The notes: a model not told the origin generated them from the sequence alone. DNA of 64,000 nt from a bacterium (GCA_020444265.1 JAHLLH010000001.1:1-64000); one strand, 5' to 3'. Positions 27,533-34,632 are shown, numbered from the stretch's first letter. Translations and numbers: made by a program.

Positions 27533-29689
27533 TTAGAGCTCGGGCAAATGGGTAACGGGAGCATCGAGGACGAGGCGCACCTTGCTGGCGAGTTCCTCTG
27601 CTCGGAAGGGTTTGGAGAGGAGAGGGATGGAACCGACAACAGGATTGTGAATCCGCTCTGCGGTATAGCCGGAGATGAACAGCAGCCGTGTATCCGGTGC
27701 TCTCTTCAACACTTGTGTCGCCAGCTCGACCCCGCCCATTTCTGGCATGACCACGTCCGCAACGATCAGGTCGACCTTGACAGCCCCAGTTTCGATCATC
27801 TTCAGACCTTGCCTCCCGTCCCCTGCTGTTTCAACGGTGTAGCCATGTTCACGCAGAACTCGAGCGGCCATCTCTCGGACCGTCTCGTTGTCCTCGACCA
27901 GCAGGATGGACTCGGTGCCTGTATTATTGCCCTTTGTCGGCATCGCCGGGATAGTTTCGCGTGTTTCAATCTCCTCCTCAACCTTAGGGAAGTAGGCACG
28001 GAACTCGGACCCTTCTCCCAGCTGGCTGGCCACACGGATATGCCCATTGCTCTGCTGAATAATGCCGAAAACGGTTGACAGACCCAGGCCAGTACCCTTA
28101 CCCACATCCTTCGTCGTAAAGAAGGGATCAAATATCCGTTGCAGGTCCTCTGCCGTAATCCCGGTCCCGGTATCGGAGACCGAAATCATGACATAGTCAC
28201 CTTTTTCCGTTGGTCCGGATGGGTATTTCGCATCAGGCAGCAAGACCGCATTGCCGGTTCGGATGGTCAACTTGCCGCCCTCGGGCATTGCATCCCGAGC
28301 GTTGACGGCGAGGTTGATGATGACCTGCTCGATCTGCGAAGGATCAGAACGCACCGACCATAAATCCTCGGCATACCCAGCGTCCAGCTTGATATGCTCA
28401 CCCAGGAGGCGTCGAAGCATCGACTCGAGGCTTCGCAGTGTGTCATTGGGATTAAAGACCTGCAGGCGCATCGTCTGTTTCCGGCTGTATGCCAGCAGTT
28501 GACGTGTGAGGTCGCTGGCACGTCCTGTCGCTCGTGTGATCTCGTCCATATCACGTAGGGCTGGATGATCTGAGCCGAGGGTGAGACGTGCCAGATCGGT
28601 ATGGCCGGATATGGCGGTTAACAGGTTGTTAAAGTCGTGTGCGATCCCCCCAGCCAGCAGGCCGATCGCTTCCATCTTTTGTGAATGGCGAAGCTGTTCT
28701 TCTATCTGGCGACGAGGGGTGATGTCACGCAAAATGCCCTCGTAGCTTTCCACCTTACCATCTTCACCTTTAACAAATGTGATGCTCAACTCGATCCAGA
28801 TGGTTCGCCCATCCTTGTGCAGCCCACGTAAAACGACTGGTGCCTCCGGCGAGTCGCCGGAACGAATGAGTGTGTCCAGGGTGTTGCGATCATCCGGATG
28901 GATGGTCATCGCGATCAGGTTTGGGTTTGAGTAAAACTCATCCGCTTTGTACCCGAGGATTTTCTCGCAGGAGGGGCTGATAAAATCGAGCGTCTGTTCG
29001 TTGTCATTGATAACATGGAAAATAGCATCGCGTGCATTGTTCAGAATCAATCGAACCGTTTGCCCTTGTTCCGACAGCCGATTGTAGTTTTTTCGCAAAA
29101 TGGTGAGGAAAACTGCGAACGCAAAGATGAGTTCAATGGTTGCCGCGATCAGAAAACCCCACATGGCCAGCGATTCGTGTTCGCGTAGGAAGGGGTAGTC
29201 AAATTTGTGCAAGCCCCAGAGAATAGCCGCGATACCAGCCACAATTCTGCTTGGACCATAGACGCTGCTGCTGCGAAGCAGCGTACTTCCGAGATAGATG
29301 TAGACAAAGCCACTGAAAAGAAAGAGGGGAAGGGTCAGAGTTTTAAAGCTGGCATCAGTTATCACACCAATCGTCAACAGGAGCACGCCCGCTGGGATGG
29401 TCAACATCCAGAGGCGATTGAACCTACGCTCTAGGAAGAGGAAGGTCCCCCAGAAAAGAAGCACAGCGTTGCTGAGCGCAAAGGTTTGGTTCAGGATAAA
29501 AATGGATGGGTTTTCCGGATGGAGAAGTAGGAGCAATCCGAAAAGGTAGCGAATGGTGGATGCGCCCCATCCGAAAGCCCAGACGAGCAGGTATCGTTCC
29601 CGTTCCTCGAAATAGAGAAACGTGAATGCAAGGGTAACGACAGCAGATGCAGCCAGCATCACGCCGATTTCGGGGAGGAGTTCTACCAT
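27533..29689 (-). CDS. Membrane-bound hybrid histidine kinase (7TM-PAS-HisKA-HATPase-receiver)
   Basis: 718 residues. Residues ~1-205 hold about seven hydrophobic segments. A PAS domain (~215-330; [18 protein letters not shown]) leads to the HisKA domain with [16 protein letters not shown], where the His is the phosphorylation site. The ATPase domain has [14 protein letters not shown] (N box), DTGTGI (G1) and [13 protein letters not shown] (G2). A C-terminal receiver domain (~605-712; [27 protein letters not shown]) makes it a hybrid kinase. No DNA-binding partner is adjacent. Its stimulus is unknown. An in-frame TTG at 29707 is an alternative start; neither has a strong ribosome site. Confidence 0.88.
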
Positions 29690-29786
29690 TGGATAAAGGA
29701 TGCGCAATCCAAGCGGACTCAGGAGTGTCTCAGATCACAACAGCGAGGAGAGACCCGGGTCAATACAGGCGTCCCCACCGTGTGAG

Positions 29787-30935
29787 TTACCAGAGTTTGT
29801 AAGAGAGAACCAACCCTGCCCGCCAGGTCGAAAAGTCTTTCGCACGGACGACATACTGAATCGGTGAATCCGTGCTTCGTATCTCGTAGTCGACGACAGG
29901 TCCACCCTCAAGATTGCCGACAATCGGGCCAGCGATCTCCAAGCCGTACCGACTGTGCAGATGTTCTCGTCCACGATGGATCGGATCGTCCGCCAGCGAC
30001 AGGTCGCTGGTGTAGTACCGGTGACGGAACCGTGCGCTGAGGGAGACATCCCATTCACGTTTCAGGATCTTTGGCGTGTCATAGCTCAACACAACCTCGA
30101 ACCAATCCTCACCATTGGACCCATCACCATACTCTGCATCGGGCAACTCGACACCTGCCGCCTGGGCGGTGCCGTCGAAGCCGACATTGTCGGAGAGCCG
30201 TTTTTTAAAGATACCGGTCACTGACAGGTCGCTTGAGATACGGTACCGAGCGTCGAGACGGTAGCCCCATCCCTGGGTGTCATACTCGGTGAAACGGGGG
30301 TTGTAGTAGATCGTATAGCTCTCATAACGTGCAGACAGTCTCAGGCCCTTGACCATTTTTGGCGAATAACGCAGTCCGACACCACCGAGGCTGTACTGGA
30401 AATCGCAGGCGTACACTGCGCCGTAGTCACGGTCATAGTAGTCACGCAGGTAACGGCTTGGGATGTAAAGGTAGCTGCCGAAAATGTCGGCACGGTTGAT
30501 CAGGTCGTGAGTAAAGAAGAGGCTGTGCACAGCACGGTCATTAAACGAATTGTTCAGGTACTGCTGGTAGCTGATCGAATAAGTCAGGCCACCATTGCGC
30601 CACCCGAACAACTTCGGGGTCCGCAGGTGAAATTTCAGACCTGCAGACTGGACCAGGGCATCGTAGGACTCAATATCCGTCGCGAGGTTCAACTCGTTGT
30701 CGACGAAACGGTCCTGGTCACGGTCGGAGAACTCGAGGTAGTTGCTGTCGTAGCCGAGCTCGTATAGCACGTGGATACGGAGCTGGTCCTGAAAGGTCCA
30801 TGAGCTTTTCTTCGCAAACGCGGGTTGACCCGGAAGCAGAATAAGGAATAGCGCCGCCAGGGCAAACGCGAGGGAGGATCGACCGTGCTGGCAATCATCT
30901 GACAAGGGGGAGCCCCTGCCTCGCGAGTGAATCAT
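29787..30935 (-). CDS. Outer-membrane beta-barrel protein of the poly-gamma-glutamate cluster
   Basis: 382 residues. After a 19-residue basic leader comes a signal peptide (LAFALAALFLILLPGQPAFA). The mature part alternates short amphipathic strands rich in Tyr and Trp (GLTYSISYQQYL, LRLSARYESYTIYY, WGYRLDARYRI, LSARFRHRYY) and ends SYKLW, an aromatic C-terminal residue as needed for insertion by the BAM complex. It is the last gene of the pgs run, 11 bases after the periplasmic protein gene, with AAGGAGAAGG before its ATG. A role in export or anchoring of the polymer across the outer membrane is inferred from position only. Confidence 0.72.
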   Translation of the reverse strand: MIHSRGRGSPLSDDCQHGRSSLAFALAALFLILLPGQPAFAKKSSWTFQDQLRIHVLYELGYDSNYLEFSDRDQDRFVDNELNLATDIESYDALVQSAGLKFHLRTPKLFGWRNGGLTYSISYQQYLNNSFNDRAVHSLFFTHDLINRADIFGSYLYIPSRYLRDYYDRDYGAVYACDFQYSLGGVGLRYSPKMVKGLRLSARYESYTIYYNPRFTEYDTQGWGYRLDARYRISSDLSVTGIFKKRLSDNVGFDGTAQAAGVELPDAEYGDGSNGEDWFEVVLSYDTPKILKREWDVSLSARFRHRYYTSDLSLADDPIHRGREHLHSRYGLEIAGPIVGNLEGGPVVDYEIRSTDSPIQYVVRAKDFSTWRAGLVLSYKLW

Positions 30936-30946
30936 TGTCCTTCTCC

Positions 30947-31867
30947 TTATTTACCTGCTTCCCGTGCAAGATCCTTCTCCGGGAGAAAGAAGCGCAGAAT
31001 GGCATCATACTGGTTCTCAGGCAGCTCGAACGAGTACCGGTGCCTGCCCTCAGGTACATCAACGTAGATATCATCACCACGTGTTGGGCGACGGTCCGGA
31101 CGATCCACAAGGATCGACACATCGGAAGCCGTTGTGCTGATCCGGTACGTGTTCTTCAGCGTCCCATCTTCGTAGACGGCCAGTGGGAATTTGATGGTGC
31201 CGCGCATCGAATCATCCATCATGACACGCGCAAGGATTTTCATCGTGGTCGGACCATTGACTTCGACCGTGAGACGTTTCTCCTCATCCACCTGGTAGTA
31301 GGTGGTAAGGTTTTCACGGACGGAGAGGCCGACTGCTTTGGTATACCCAACAGGGGTGATGGCAACATAATGCCCGTCAATGTCCGGTTCAGGACGTTCA
31401 CGCTGAACACGGAAGAAGACAGGGTGTGCGGCCTTGGACCCAAGTTTGAGGACCAGGGTCTTCGGTGTGGTCTGGGAGCCGACTTCAATGATACGGCTTT
31501 CTGTCGCGGCTGCCTCCTTGCCACGGATGGTCACATTCTCATCCGGGGTGGATGCACGCGCCATCAGGCGGGTCTTGCTCCTGTCGAAACCTAGACGGAA
31601 GGAGTAAATCGCTTCCTTCGCCTTGCTGCCGCGCAGGTCTGCACGTGTGAAAATACGGACGGGATCGTTTTTCGAAAGCTGGTACTCCATGCTTTCGCCT
31701 GGGGCAAGACGGTAGTAGGTGCGGCGCTTGCCGTAAATCAGGAGTGTCGTCTTTTTTCCACCCTGTTTCGGTTTAATCGTCGCCCAATCCGATGCCTGCA
31801 ATGCCAGAGGTGTGAGCAGTGCGACAAGCAGGATGTAAGCAACCAGGCGAGCTGTGCGTGACTTCAT
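30947..31867 (-). CDS. Exported protein of unknown function in the poly-gamma-glutamate cluster
   Basis: 306 residues with a signal peptide (~1-26, ending LQA) and a soluble, beta-rich remainder without Cys. Segments such as RTYYRLAPGESMEYQLSKNDPVRIFTRADLRG and GRHRYSFELPENQYDAILRFFLP suggest beta-sandwich modules. It is expected in the periplasm. The ATG at 31867 has GAGG upstream; a TTG at 31876 is in frame but has no room for a ribosome site. It sits between pgsW (12-base gap) and the barrel gene (11-base gap), and probably links the inner-membrane synthase to the barrel. No known family was recognised. Confidence 0.65.
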   Translation of the reverse strand: MKSRTARLVAYILLVALLTPLALQASDWATIKPKQGGKKTTLLIYGKRRTYYRLAPGESMEYQLSKNDPVRIFTRADLRGSKAKEAIYSFRLGFDRSKTRLMARASTPDENVTIRGKEAAATESRIIEVGSQTTPKTLVLKLGSKAAHPVFFRVQRERPEPDIDGHYVAITPVGYTKAVGLSVRENLTTYYQVDEEKRLTVEVNGPTTMKILARVMMDDSMRGTIKFPLAVYEDGTLKNTYRISTTASDVSILVDRPDRRPTRGDDIYVDVPEGRHRYSFELPENQYDAILRFFLPEKDLAREAGK

Positions 31868-31879
31868 CGTTTCCAAACC

Positions 31880-33013
31880 TCACATCAGGGTGTCAGGGTC
31901 CACGCCGGGACGATCCAGCCGCATAGTTCGACGATCGAACCAGACGACAATAATCAAAGTAGCCAGGGTCACCAGCAGTGCCACAGCCGTGACCCATAAG
32001 TTATAACGAATTTCACTGAAAAGACGACCTGTTCCTGGTGCCGGAAGTGGATTAGGCGAGCGCGGCAGCTCATGTTCCCGGGCAATCTGGCTGATATTCA
32101 CAACATTGAGCACGGGCACGCCTCGGGCGTTCATCGCGTGAATCACACCACGGCGTGGGTAATTGAGATTTGGCAGAATTTCACGAACCCCTTCTCCAAT
32201 CAACCCGGCGTTCCGCGAGTGACCGAGTGATGCGAGACCCCCGCCGATGTTGATGTAGAGCTTGACCGGGTTATCTGTTGACAGGGAATCGTAAATTGCC
32301 ATACGGCGGGCAACACTCGCTTCCAGGTCAGCTTCCTCAATTACCTTAAGGTGGTTGCGCGAAATCGCTTCACGCAGGAGACGGCGTCCTTCGGGAGATA
32401 ACTGACGGCCCAAATCTTCGCCTCCACCCAGCGATGCAGCCGCAGAGCCACGCATCAGGATGGCACGATCCAGCAGGATCGTCTCCATGTCGAGCCAGGT
32501 GAAGGTCGGATCATTCGCACCCCAGGAGGATGCGCCGGCGGATGTGGTGACAATCGGGTAGAGCTGCAGAGCCTGGCAGGCTGCATACATCGCCAGGTTA
32601 ACTCCAGGCAGCGATCCTGACATACCGACCGCAATCGCATCGCCAGGTTGTACGCCCGCTTCCATCAAGTACTCAACCATGACCGCAGCCATGTTCGGAT
32701 TCAACGCAGTCCACTTTGCTTCGAGGTTGCCGGTCTCTGTGGTGATCGGCGAAAATTGCTGGCCGATCAAGGCCGAGAGGTTGGGGTCATTGATATCATC
32801 GATGAACCTGCCGCGCGGGAACTGGACGTCGCGAAGGGTGTCCATCGCAGCCTGCATCCAGTGTGCGGCATCCAGTTTCTGTTCGTATGCGTCGGTGCGT
32901 CGCTCAATGATTGAACTATTCGCCCAGAGGTACATGATCAGGCTGACAACCGTCAGCACGAGCAGGGTGCGGTGCGACCGCATGGAGGGGCGGTAACGGC
33001 GTGGACTAAGCAA
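31880..33013 (-). CDS. pgsW: Poly-gamma-glutamate system protein PgsW
   Basis: 377 residues with membrane segments at both ends (near 15-30, LLVLTVVSLIMYLWA, and 340-362, VTAVALLVTLATLIIVVWF). The middle is a conserved extracytoplasmic domain with AVGMSGSLPGVNLAMYAA, TSAGASSWGANDPTFTWLDME and INIGGGLASLG. This matches the protein regularly found with CapB and CapC in poly-gamma-glutamate loci. Its biochemical job is unknown. A TTG start at 33013 is supported by GGGAGGG 8 bases upstream and overlaps the pgsC stop; an ATG lies at 32983. Confidence 0.82.
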   Translation of the reverse strand: MLSPRRYRPSMRSHRTLLVLTVVSLIMYLWANSSIIERRTDAYEQKLDAAHWMQAAMDTLRDVQFPRGRFIDDINDPNLSALIGQQFSPITTETGNLEAKWTALNPNMAAVMVEYLMEAGVQPGDAIAVGMSGSLPGVNLAMYAACQALQLYPIVTTSAGASSWGANDPTFTWLDMETILLDRAILMRGSAAASLGGGEDLGRQLSPEGRRLLREAISRNHLKVIEEADLEASVARRMAIYDSLSTDNPVKLYINIGGGLASLGHSRNAGLIGEGVREILPNLNYPRRGVIHAMNARGVPVLNVVNISQIAREHELPRSPNPLPAPGTGRLFSEIRYNLWVTAVALLVTLATLIIVVWFDRRTMRLDRPGVDPDTLM

Positions 33014-33461
33014 GGATCTGCCCTCCCATGATCAGCATGACAGCGAGACGAACCACGATAGAAGCGATGGTGACAGCTGCAATCGTGCGGAACACACCCT
33101 GGCGCTCCATCCAGTTGGCAATCAGGCCGGGGATGATGTAACCAATCGCTTCGAGTCGAATATCTGCTGCAGCCAGAAAAGCCGAATGAACTATCAAGTT
33201 GCGCAACAAGGCGCCGAAGATGAAGCCGAAAAGGATCGCGAGGATGAGACGGCGACGTCCATAGACGAAGACGAAAAAGGAGGTCAATCGCACAGCGCCG
33301 AATGTGATGAAGCTTACGAGCAGGGTGCCAATAAGCATCCAAATGTTGTTGAGGTTCAGGGCGACATAGCCCGGCACAACAATACCACCGGCGGCGACCC
33401 CGAAGATCTCACTGAAGATCAGGCTGAAGGCGACCCCCAACCCCACCGCAATTTCAACCAT
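33006..33461 (-). CDS. pgsC: Poly-gamma-glutamate biosynthesis protein PgsC/CapC
   Basis: 151 residues, almost wholly membrane-embedded, with about four or five helices. It starts MVEIAVGLGVAFSLIFSEIFGVAAGGIVVPGYVAL, the conserved opening of PgsC/CapC, which partners PgsB to form the membrane synthase of poly-gamma-glutamate. AGAGGAGAG precedes the ATG, which overlaps the pgsB stop by 8 bases, so the subunits are translationally coupled. Confidence 0.93.
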   Translation of the reverse strand: MVEIAVGLGVAFSLIFSEIFGVAAGGIVVPGYVALNLNNIWMLIGTLLVSFITFGAVRLTSFFVFVYGRRRLILAILFGFIFGALLRNLIVHSAFLAAADIRLEAIGYIIPGLIANWMERQGVFRTIAAVTIASIVVRLAVMLIMGGQILA

Positions 33462-34632
33462 TCTGCACTCTCCTCTTGCGGAACAGGTCCGCGACTGCCA
33501 ATCCGCCGTGGCCGGCGTTGCCCATGGCGAATATGAACGCGTCCTTCTCAATCTCCGACCAGATGATGTCCCAGGCCTTGTCGGCACTTACATGGCCAAT
33601 GCGCTTCACCTTGTTGGCGGAAATTCCACTCCGCTTGATGCGCTGTGCAAGCATCTCTGTGCTTTCGCCCATCGAGAGAAGCAAGTCAAACTCCATGCTC
33701 CGGCCCATCATCTCGACCAACTGGACACTCCGGTCGAAACGGTCCCCTCGTGTATTCAGTAGCACAATTCGCTTGCCGACACTTGGGAAGAGATCCTGGC
33801 TACGTCGCCAGGTTACCAGTGTTGATTCCGGGTCGTTGGCTGCAAGGGCAGAGAGAAACATGGCTTGACGTTCCCCGTCCTGCACCTTGAAAACCTTCAA
33901 TGCCCCCGGGTCGGGGTGGGCTGCCACCATACCATTCAGGGCAGTATTCCGATCCACTCCACAGAACTCGCACACCTCGAGGGCCAGGGCCACATTGTCC
34001 GGGTGCTCGATGTAGGAGAACCTACGCATTACATCCAGCCCGATCGCTTCGGTATCTGGACGGACCAGTTTGCTGCCAATCGGTTCCGCTCGCTTCCGGA
34101 AGATGTCGAGGACATCGTCCCGGTAATCCGAGGTGAAGATCGGAGCATTTTTCGGGATGGTGTTGGCGAGGGAGTTGGCAATGTTCGACAAGGAGGGACC
34201 CATCTCGCGAACATGGTCCATCCTGGCGTTGGTGATCACTCCCGCAGTGGCGTGTACGAACCGATGTTCGCAGATCCACTGGTAATCGGGCATCACTGCC
34301 ATGCACTCGACAACCACAGCTTCCGGACGATGCCGGTCGAAAAAGCGAAATACCTTGACCTGTTCGATGATATTCACCGGATGCAGGCGGGTAATCGGAA
34401 TTTCGAGGCCATGTTCATCGATAATGCGGGGCAGAGTGCCTGTGACCTTTGCGAGGGTCTTGAGGCCGCCAGCACGTAAACCCGCTGCAACAAGCCGGGT
34501 GACTGAGCTTTTCCCACGGGTGCCGTTGACATGTACTCGGATGGGGATCGAATACACACGCCGCCTGTGAGCAGCGTATTCAAAGACGCCGTAGCCGACC
34601 AGCAAGACCGTGAGCAAGATAATGACGACCAT
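33454..34632 (-). CDS. pgsB: Poly-gamma-glutamate synthase PgsB/CapB
   Basis: 392 residues. One N-terminal membrane helix (IILLTVLLVGYGVFEYAA) is followed by a Mur-ligase-like ATPase: IRVHVNGTRGKSSVTRLVAAGL is the phosphate-binding loop near residue 35, with VVVECMAVMPDYQW and TNARMDHVREMG further on. The enzyme activates gamma-carboxyl groups with ATP and joins glutamates into poly-gamma-glutamate at the membrane. It heads a five-gene run with pgsC, pgsW and two exported proteins. No pgsA/capA is present. No clear ribosome site was found for the ATG. Confidence 0.93.
   Translation of the reverse strand: MVVIILLTVLLVGYGVFEYAAHRRRVYSIPIRVHVNGTRGKSSVTRLVAAGLRAGGLKTLAKVTGTLPRIIDEHGLEIPITRLHPVNIIEQVKVFRFFDRHRPEAVVVECMAVMPDYQWICEHRFVHATAGVITNARMDHVREMGPSLSNIANSLANTIPKNAPIFTSDYRDDVLDIFRKRAEPIGSKLVRPDTEAIGLDVMRRFSYIEHPDNVALALEVCEFCGVDRNTALNGMVAAHPDPGALKVFKVQDGERQAMFLSALAANDPESTLVTWRRSQDLFPSVGKRIVLLNTRGDRFDRSVQLVEMMGRSMEFDLLLSMGESTEMLAQRIKRSGISANKVKRIGHVSADKAWDIIWSEIEKDAFIFAMGNAGHGGLAVADLFRKRRVQNG

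Follow-up and report, generated by a model that had tools for sequence, protein, structure and literature searches.

A diderm form of the poly-γ-glutamate synthase operon with a candidate outer-membrane exit module, PgsX-PgsY

Most work on the synthesis of poly-γ-glutamate (γ-PGA) concerns Bacillus, whose cells have no outer membrane; how, then, would a diderm bacterium bring this polymer to its surface? The question is raised by a 64,000-nucleotide stretch of bacterial DNA (GCA_020444265.1 JAHLLH010000001.1:1-64000; hereafter the window), probably from the phylum Candidatus Electryoneota, in which pgsB, pgsC and pgsW are followed by the genes of two further exported proteins, here given the working names PgsX and PgsY. 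The current capsule-finding model has no outer-membrane component for γ-PGA, and its authors state that diderms require at least one further protein (PMC5542703). For this passage, PgsX and PgsY are currently the strongest candidates: their linkage to pgsBCW is firm in several diderm phyla, and we consider it fairly probable that the five genes form the diderm version of the γ-PGA synthase operon, with an outer-membrane module of its own, PgsX-PgsY, as the exit of the polymer. The genes are, from pgsB onwards:

pgsB, 33454..34632, minus strand, 392 residues: poly-γ-glutamate synthase, a Mur-ligase-like amide ligase with a hydrophobic segment at the N-terminus
pgsC, 33006..33461, minus strand, 151 residues: integral membrane partner of PgsB, with its ATG at 33461
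pgsW, 31880..33013, minus strand, 377 residues: a hydrophobic segment at both ends, the domain between them probably periplasmic
pgsX, 30947..31867, minus strand, 306 residues: signal peptide and two predicted tandem jelly-roll β-sandwich domains; an alternative TTG start lies at 31876
pgsY, 29787..30935, minus strand, 382 residues: exported, predicted 14-strand outer-membrane β-barrel

The first three proteins belong to established NCBIfam families: PgsB to TIGR04012 (410 bits, cut-off 223), PgsC to TIGR04011 (118 bits, cut-off 96; it also matches Caps_synth_CapC in Pfam), and PgsW, adjoining pgsBC, to TIGR04332 (317 bits, cut-off 100). PgsB is 47-53% identical to its relatives in the phylum and 34% to the PgsB of Cetobacterium, and retains the ATP-binding motif HVNGTRGKSSV; an alignment places one hydrophobic segment at each end of PgsW. 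By this family membership, the product would be γ-PGA. The pgsB/pgsC and pgsC/pgsW pairs each overlap by 8 bases, and pgsX and pgsY are separated from the gene before them by 12 and 11 bases, respectively; family matches and coordinates thus bear out the five genes of the original prediction, in their order and tight spacing. PgsX and PgsY match no family in Pfam or NCBIfam, and Pfam detects a Wza/OPX polysaccharide export domain in neither. For PgsW, a sequence search for known structures gave matches at chance level only, and a literature search for 'PgsW' or TIGR04332 returned nothing relevant. The absence of pgsA/capA, which had also been noted, holds for the operon, none of whose five genes matches the CapA family PF09587, but not for the genome, which encodes two such proteins elsewhere (C1:272218 and C2:65609); as this family also matches in 7 of 14 control genomes, these two carry little information.

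The arrangement is not a matter of chance, since the order is kept throughout the phylum. In a sample of 39 genomes, the window's own included (here and below, the genomes are mostly metagenome-assembled), the complete five-gene set stands in this order at 34 of 37 pgsBC loci, in one of which the contig stops within the barrel gene, and the remaining three break off at a contig edge; in G001 and G016, PgsX and PgsY turn up on other contigs, again at the ends (L202, L203). A PgsW-family protein is present in all 39 genomes and PgsX in 37; in the two without PgsX (G030, G036), the sole PgsW is a paralogue without adjoining pgsBC.

The five-gene order recurs in Marinimicrobia, Cloacimonadota, Bacteroidota, Ignavibacteriota and Gemmatimonadota. 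Among 297 evenly sampled Bacteroidota genomes, 12 have PgsC; seven, all from this set, have a strong PgsX match, in each case adjoining pgsC, and six of the seven also have a strong barrel match beside pgsC, the seventh, Winogradskyella, having a divergent barrel. The sole other PgsX match in this sample is a weak 51-residue fragment. In an equally even sample of 149 Marinimicrobia genomes, PgsC is found in 55, PgsX in 54 and both in 52, within 3 kb of each other in 49; the exceptions are contig ends, clusters of a second type (type B, described below), and G462, where the PgsX/PgsY pair follows an unrelated gene on a contig of 4 kb. Fisher tests of the co-occurrence of PgsX and PgsC give 1.7e-10 for Bacteroidota and 7e-34 for Marinimicrobia, values that ignore shared ancestry and serve as a guide only. 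A wider search with PgsB was ranked by similarity and is no census; its best 80 loci, out of at least 589 matching stretches, all come from diderm groups. Models built from the operon proteins recognise both PgsX and PgsY in 55 of these 80, PgsX only in 14 (four at or near a contig end, ten with another barrel), PgsY only in one, and neither in ten, five of which lie at a contig end and five of which have no pair beside pgsW. PgsW is found in none of the 14 control genomes; PgsC matches in Bacillus subtilis. Homologues of the exported proteins lying mostly away from pgs genes had been named in advance as an outcome that would refute the proposal; instead, full-length PgsX tracks pgsBCW in three sampled phyla.

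The two exported proteins are also joined physically. In two Cloacimonadota loci (L123, L138) they are fused into one protein of 641-642 residues, in which the PgsX part scores 65-70 bits and the barrel part 72-89 bits, and in a locus of Gemmatimonadota (L165) the barrel carries an additional PgsX half at its N-terminus, next to a normal PgsX gene. The barrel itself varies: in Flavobacteriaceae, the one after PgsX is a distant homologue of PgsY (hhalign 97.6%, E 3e-12), and in other Bacteroidota a DUF2490-like protein, for which no profile similarity to PgsY was found (2%), takes its place; the barrel-like gene thus keeps its position despite a change of family. Two Bacteroidota loci have a lipoprotein-like gene between PgsX and the barrel.

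Predicted structures are consistent with a periplasmic and an outer-membrane component. The AlphaFold2 model of PgsX (predicted local distance difference test, pLDDT, 92.7) shows a signal helix and two β-sandwich domains of the jelly-roll type, which share a repeated Tyr...Arg pattern; its fold matches in the PDB include tandem CBM22 domains, PNGase F and the periplasmic protein BcsB, with low whole-length template modeling (TM) scores, and a sequence search of the PDB gave no match. PgsY is modeled (pLDDT 91, predicted TM score 0.83) with the 14-strand monomeric porin fold of CymA (E 1.4e-10) and OmpG (E 6e-9), its nearest PDB folds in Foldseek at about 11% identity; PgaA (4y25) and FadL are also among the matches. 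A PDB sequence search with PgsY finds nothing at E ≤ 1, and so detects no sequence homology to CymA or OmpG. With sidedness and residue facing assigned from loop length, strand alternation and barrel convention, the residues facing the interior are hydrophilic, with a mean net charge of +2.2. Near-invariant charged or polar residues accompany the well-conserved extracellular loops of PgsY: N65, S70, E217, D219, D317, H320, R323 and K366.

A Mur-ligase-like PgsB and a membrane protein PgsC place synthesis at the inner membrane, where the two would polymerize glutamate. PgsW, anchored there by both ends, may substitute for the PgsA/CapA of Bacillus; PgsX, as a periplasmic jelly-roll pair, would receive or guide the chain and dock on PgsY, and PgsY, as a monomeric 14-strand barrel, would release it to the outside. 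A polymer route of this kind is supported by the conserved order, the linkage of PgsX to pgsC, the fusions, and the replacement of barrels in the same position, as well as by the predicted CBM-like and BcsB-like sandwiches and the CymA/OmpG-like barrel with its match to PgaA and its hydrophilic interior. The periplasmic adaptor and outer-membrane exit or anchor originally proposed therefore gain support, the fusions and predicted folds fitting an adaptor plus a pore. The sole link to a phenotype, which also favors this route, is the staining by DAPI (4',6-diamidino-2-phenylindole) of PGA-like flocs in an enrichment of Cloacimonadota (PMC13082233). For the broader proposal of a dedicated exit that combines a jelly-roll adaptor with a 14-strand barrel, as separate or fused proteins and with the barrel open to exchange, and that is widespread across the Fibrobacterota-Chlorobiota-Bacteroidota (FCB) superphylum and possibly ancestral there, we see an even chance.

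Several observations weigh against an exit function. The pair is absent beside pgsW in one locus of Cloacimonadota (L124), three of Myxococcota (L145, L147, L157) and one of Planctomycetota (L154), as well as from the type B loci. Two full PgsX copies stand alone in Electryoneota (L190, L191), and 19 of 195 Myxococcota-group genomes encode single PgsX-like domains away from pgs genes, with no pgs gene recognized in the stretches examined; the PgsX-like domain is therefore wider than this operon. An Arg/Lys-rich interior was sought in PgsY and not found (K/R 18%, D/E 16%), and its extracellular loops are its most conserved loops, which is unusual for a plain pore. A literature search found no transport or product results for any carrier.

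Some of the clusters without the pair form a type of their own. In type B, pgsBCW lies beside a gamma-glutamyltransferase and mostly also DUF6305, AstE-like and DctM/TRAP-like proteins; it is found in all five Bacteroidota genomes that have PgsC but not PgsX, in two genomes of Marinimicrobia, at the PgsC locus of the Marinimicrobia genome G420 (whose PgsX lies on another contig), and on a plasmid of Cetobacterium, the only genus returned by a plasmid search with PgsW. No PgsX or PgsY was found in type B clusters, and in the even samples every pgsC locus without PgsX that could be judged is of this type. A tree of 98 PgsB proteins groups the eight type B sequences of Bacteroidota and Marinimicrobia in a single clade with 100/100 support, separate from the PgsB of the window; the Cetobacterium protein sits on a long branch and its placement is unsure. 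On the evidence of this tree, the absence of PgsX therefore coincides with a different synthase subfamily in these two phyla. The pair is accordingly no universal companion of diderm pgsBCW: the concern that such clusters would always lack it proved unfounded, yet some do, namely type B (Fusobacteriota, some Bacteroidota and some Marinimicrobia), those of Myxococcota and Planctomycetota, and L124. As a side observation, several Electryoneota loci (L050 8134-9120, L055 7959-8930, L057 7849-8859 and related ones) encode a PgsW paralogue without pgsBC, in the order gamma-glutamyltransferase, PgsW2, DctM-like, AstE-like, DUF6305, a gene set also seen around pgsBCW in type B; this cluster is possibly a γ-PGA turnover or uptake module. 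In L072, L073, L076, L078, L080 and L083, also Electryoneota, a PgsW paralogue lies beside a conserved gene for a metallo-β-lactamase-fold (MBL-fold) hydrolase-like protein.

The conserved outer loops of PgsY leave room for a role in anchoring or processing, in which PgsX would feed PgsY and the outer loops would bind, cut or attach the polymer, much as CapD acts on it at the wall in encapsulated Bacillus. Mapped onto the model, 50 sequences give 1.88 bits per column in the extracellular loops, 1.47 in the strands and 1.03 in the periplasmic turns, and the near-invariant residues point the same way; however, PgsY is predicted to have a channel-protein fold, and in some Bacteroidota a DUF2490-like barrel with no profile similarity to it stands in its place, a swap easier to reconcile with a simple conduit than with a specific enzyme. 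On balance, an anchoring or processing role is unlikely.

That the product is instead a different γ-linked or mixed peptide polymer, or a modification of the envelope, is quite unlikely, PgsB and PgsC being clearly above their equivalog cut-offs and the ATP-binding motif being kept, although the literature search returned no chemical characterization for the clade and the Cloacimonadota evidence consists of staining in an enrichment; even then, PgsX and PgsY could still serve as an exit.

Uptake or recycling, with PgsY as a porin importing γ-glutamyl oligomers and PgsX binding them in the periplasm, would agree with the nature of the closest solved barrels (uptake porins such as CymA), with the resemblance of PgsX to binding-module folds and with the racemase-like, symporter and peptidase genes beside its stand-alone copies. 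We nevertheless regard it as highly unlikely, for the pair is located in a synthase operon and the clusters with gamma-glutamyltransferase and transporters, which look more like turnover systems, are without it. The stand-alone copies themselves (L190 7698-8714, L191 7510-8475) lie near alanine-racemase-like, sodium:solute symporter and M20 peptidase genes, in L190 additionally near DUF1611. Lastly, that pgsX and pgsY are passengers co-transcribed with pgsBCW by chance is extremely improbable and was rejected, since, for all that they belong to no family of known PgsBCW partners, they are linked to it across several phyla at low sequence identity and occur as fusions.

Returning to the exit module, its operon shares the PgsB and PgsC families and the pgsB-pgsC order with pgsBCA(E)/capBCA(E) of Bacillus, but has PgsW in place of PgsA, two added exported genes, and an outer membrane to cross. 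Type B clusters share the order pgsB, pgsC, pgsW and differ in their separate PgsB clade (Bacteroidota, Marinimicrobia) and in that PgsX and PgsY were not found. With AlgK/AlgE, PgaA and BcsC, the pair has in common a periplasmic part and an outer-membrane barrel, split or fused, and PgaA (4y25) and BcsB recur among the fold matches of PgsY and PgsX, respectively; yet the models show neither the 16-18-strand barrel of these exporters, PgsY having 14 predicted strands, nor their scaffold of tetratricopeptide (TPR) repeats, PgsX having jelly-rolls, and no sequence similarity was found. The likeness is one of plan, not of ancestry. To CymA and OmpG, PgsY is alike in its 14 strands and overall fold and unlike in sequence (about 11% identity), in its conserved outer loops and in its operon context. 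The PGA operon described in Cloacimonadota, with CapB, CapC and 'CapA (PgsF)', is likened by its authors to Gram-positive ones, with nothing said of an outer-membrane step (PMC13082233); it is probably of the same type, going by the Cloacimonadota loci compared here rather than that species' own operon, since these carry pgsBCW and the pair, split or fused.

Judging from the distribution, a surface polymer of polyglutamate may be present in many uncultured FCB bacteria; if true, it would be a common trait of uncultured diderm phyla. The pair helps to distinguish this type of synthase operon from the one linked to gamma-glutamyltransferase, and as PgsX and a divergent barrel occur in a named species, Winogradskyella haliclonae, the question of export becomes testable with two defined genes.

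Further proteins accompany some of these loci. A large protein of about 1,100-1,260 residues is encoded directly upstream of pgsB in L183 (9010-12786) and L189 (11799-15557), and large genes occupy the same place in L184, L186 and L187; a scan of two of these, from L183 and L189, identifies C25 (gingipain-family) peptidases that carry a type IX secretion-like tail. In L183, an LVIVD-repeat protein follows the barrel. Several of the single-domain proteins of the Myxococcota group (L188 5293-6687, L207-L212) combine one PgsX-like domain with a barrel-like C-terminus, which in L188 matches OMP_b-brl; BLASTP of a Myxococcota domain-barrel protein against a Cloacimonadota fusion gave no match. In the window, the operon is followed 79 bases downstream of pgsY by one further gene on the same strand:

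27533-29707, minus strand: hybrid histidine kinase, CckA-like

It was considered as a sixth member and rejected: at the equivalent place in the family member G016 (L203), the barrel leads directly to major facilitator superfamily (MFS) and RluD-like genes resembling those beyond the kinase in the window, so that the kinase probably lies outside the system.

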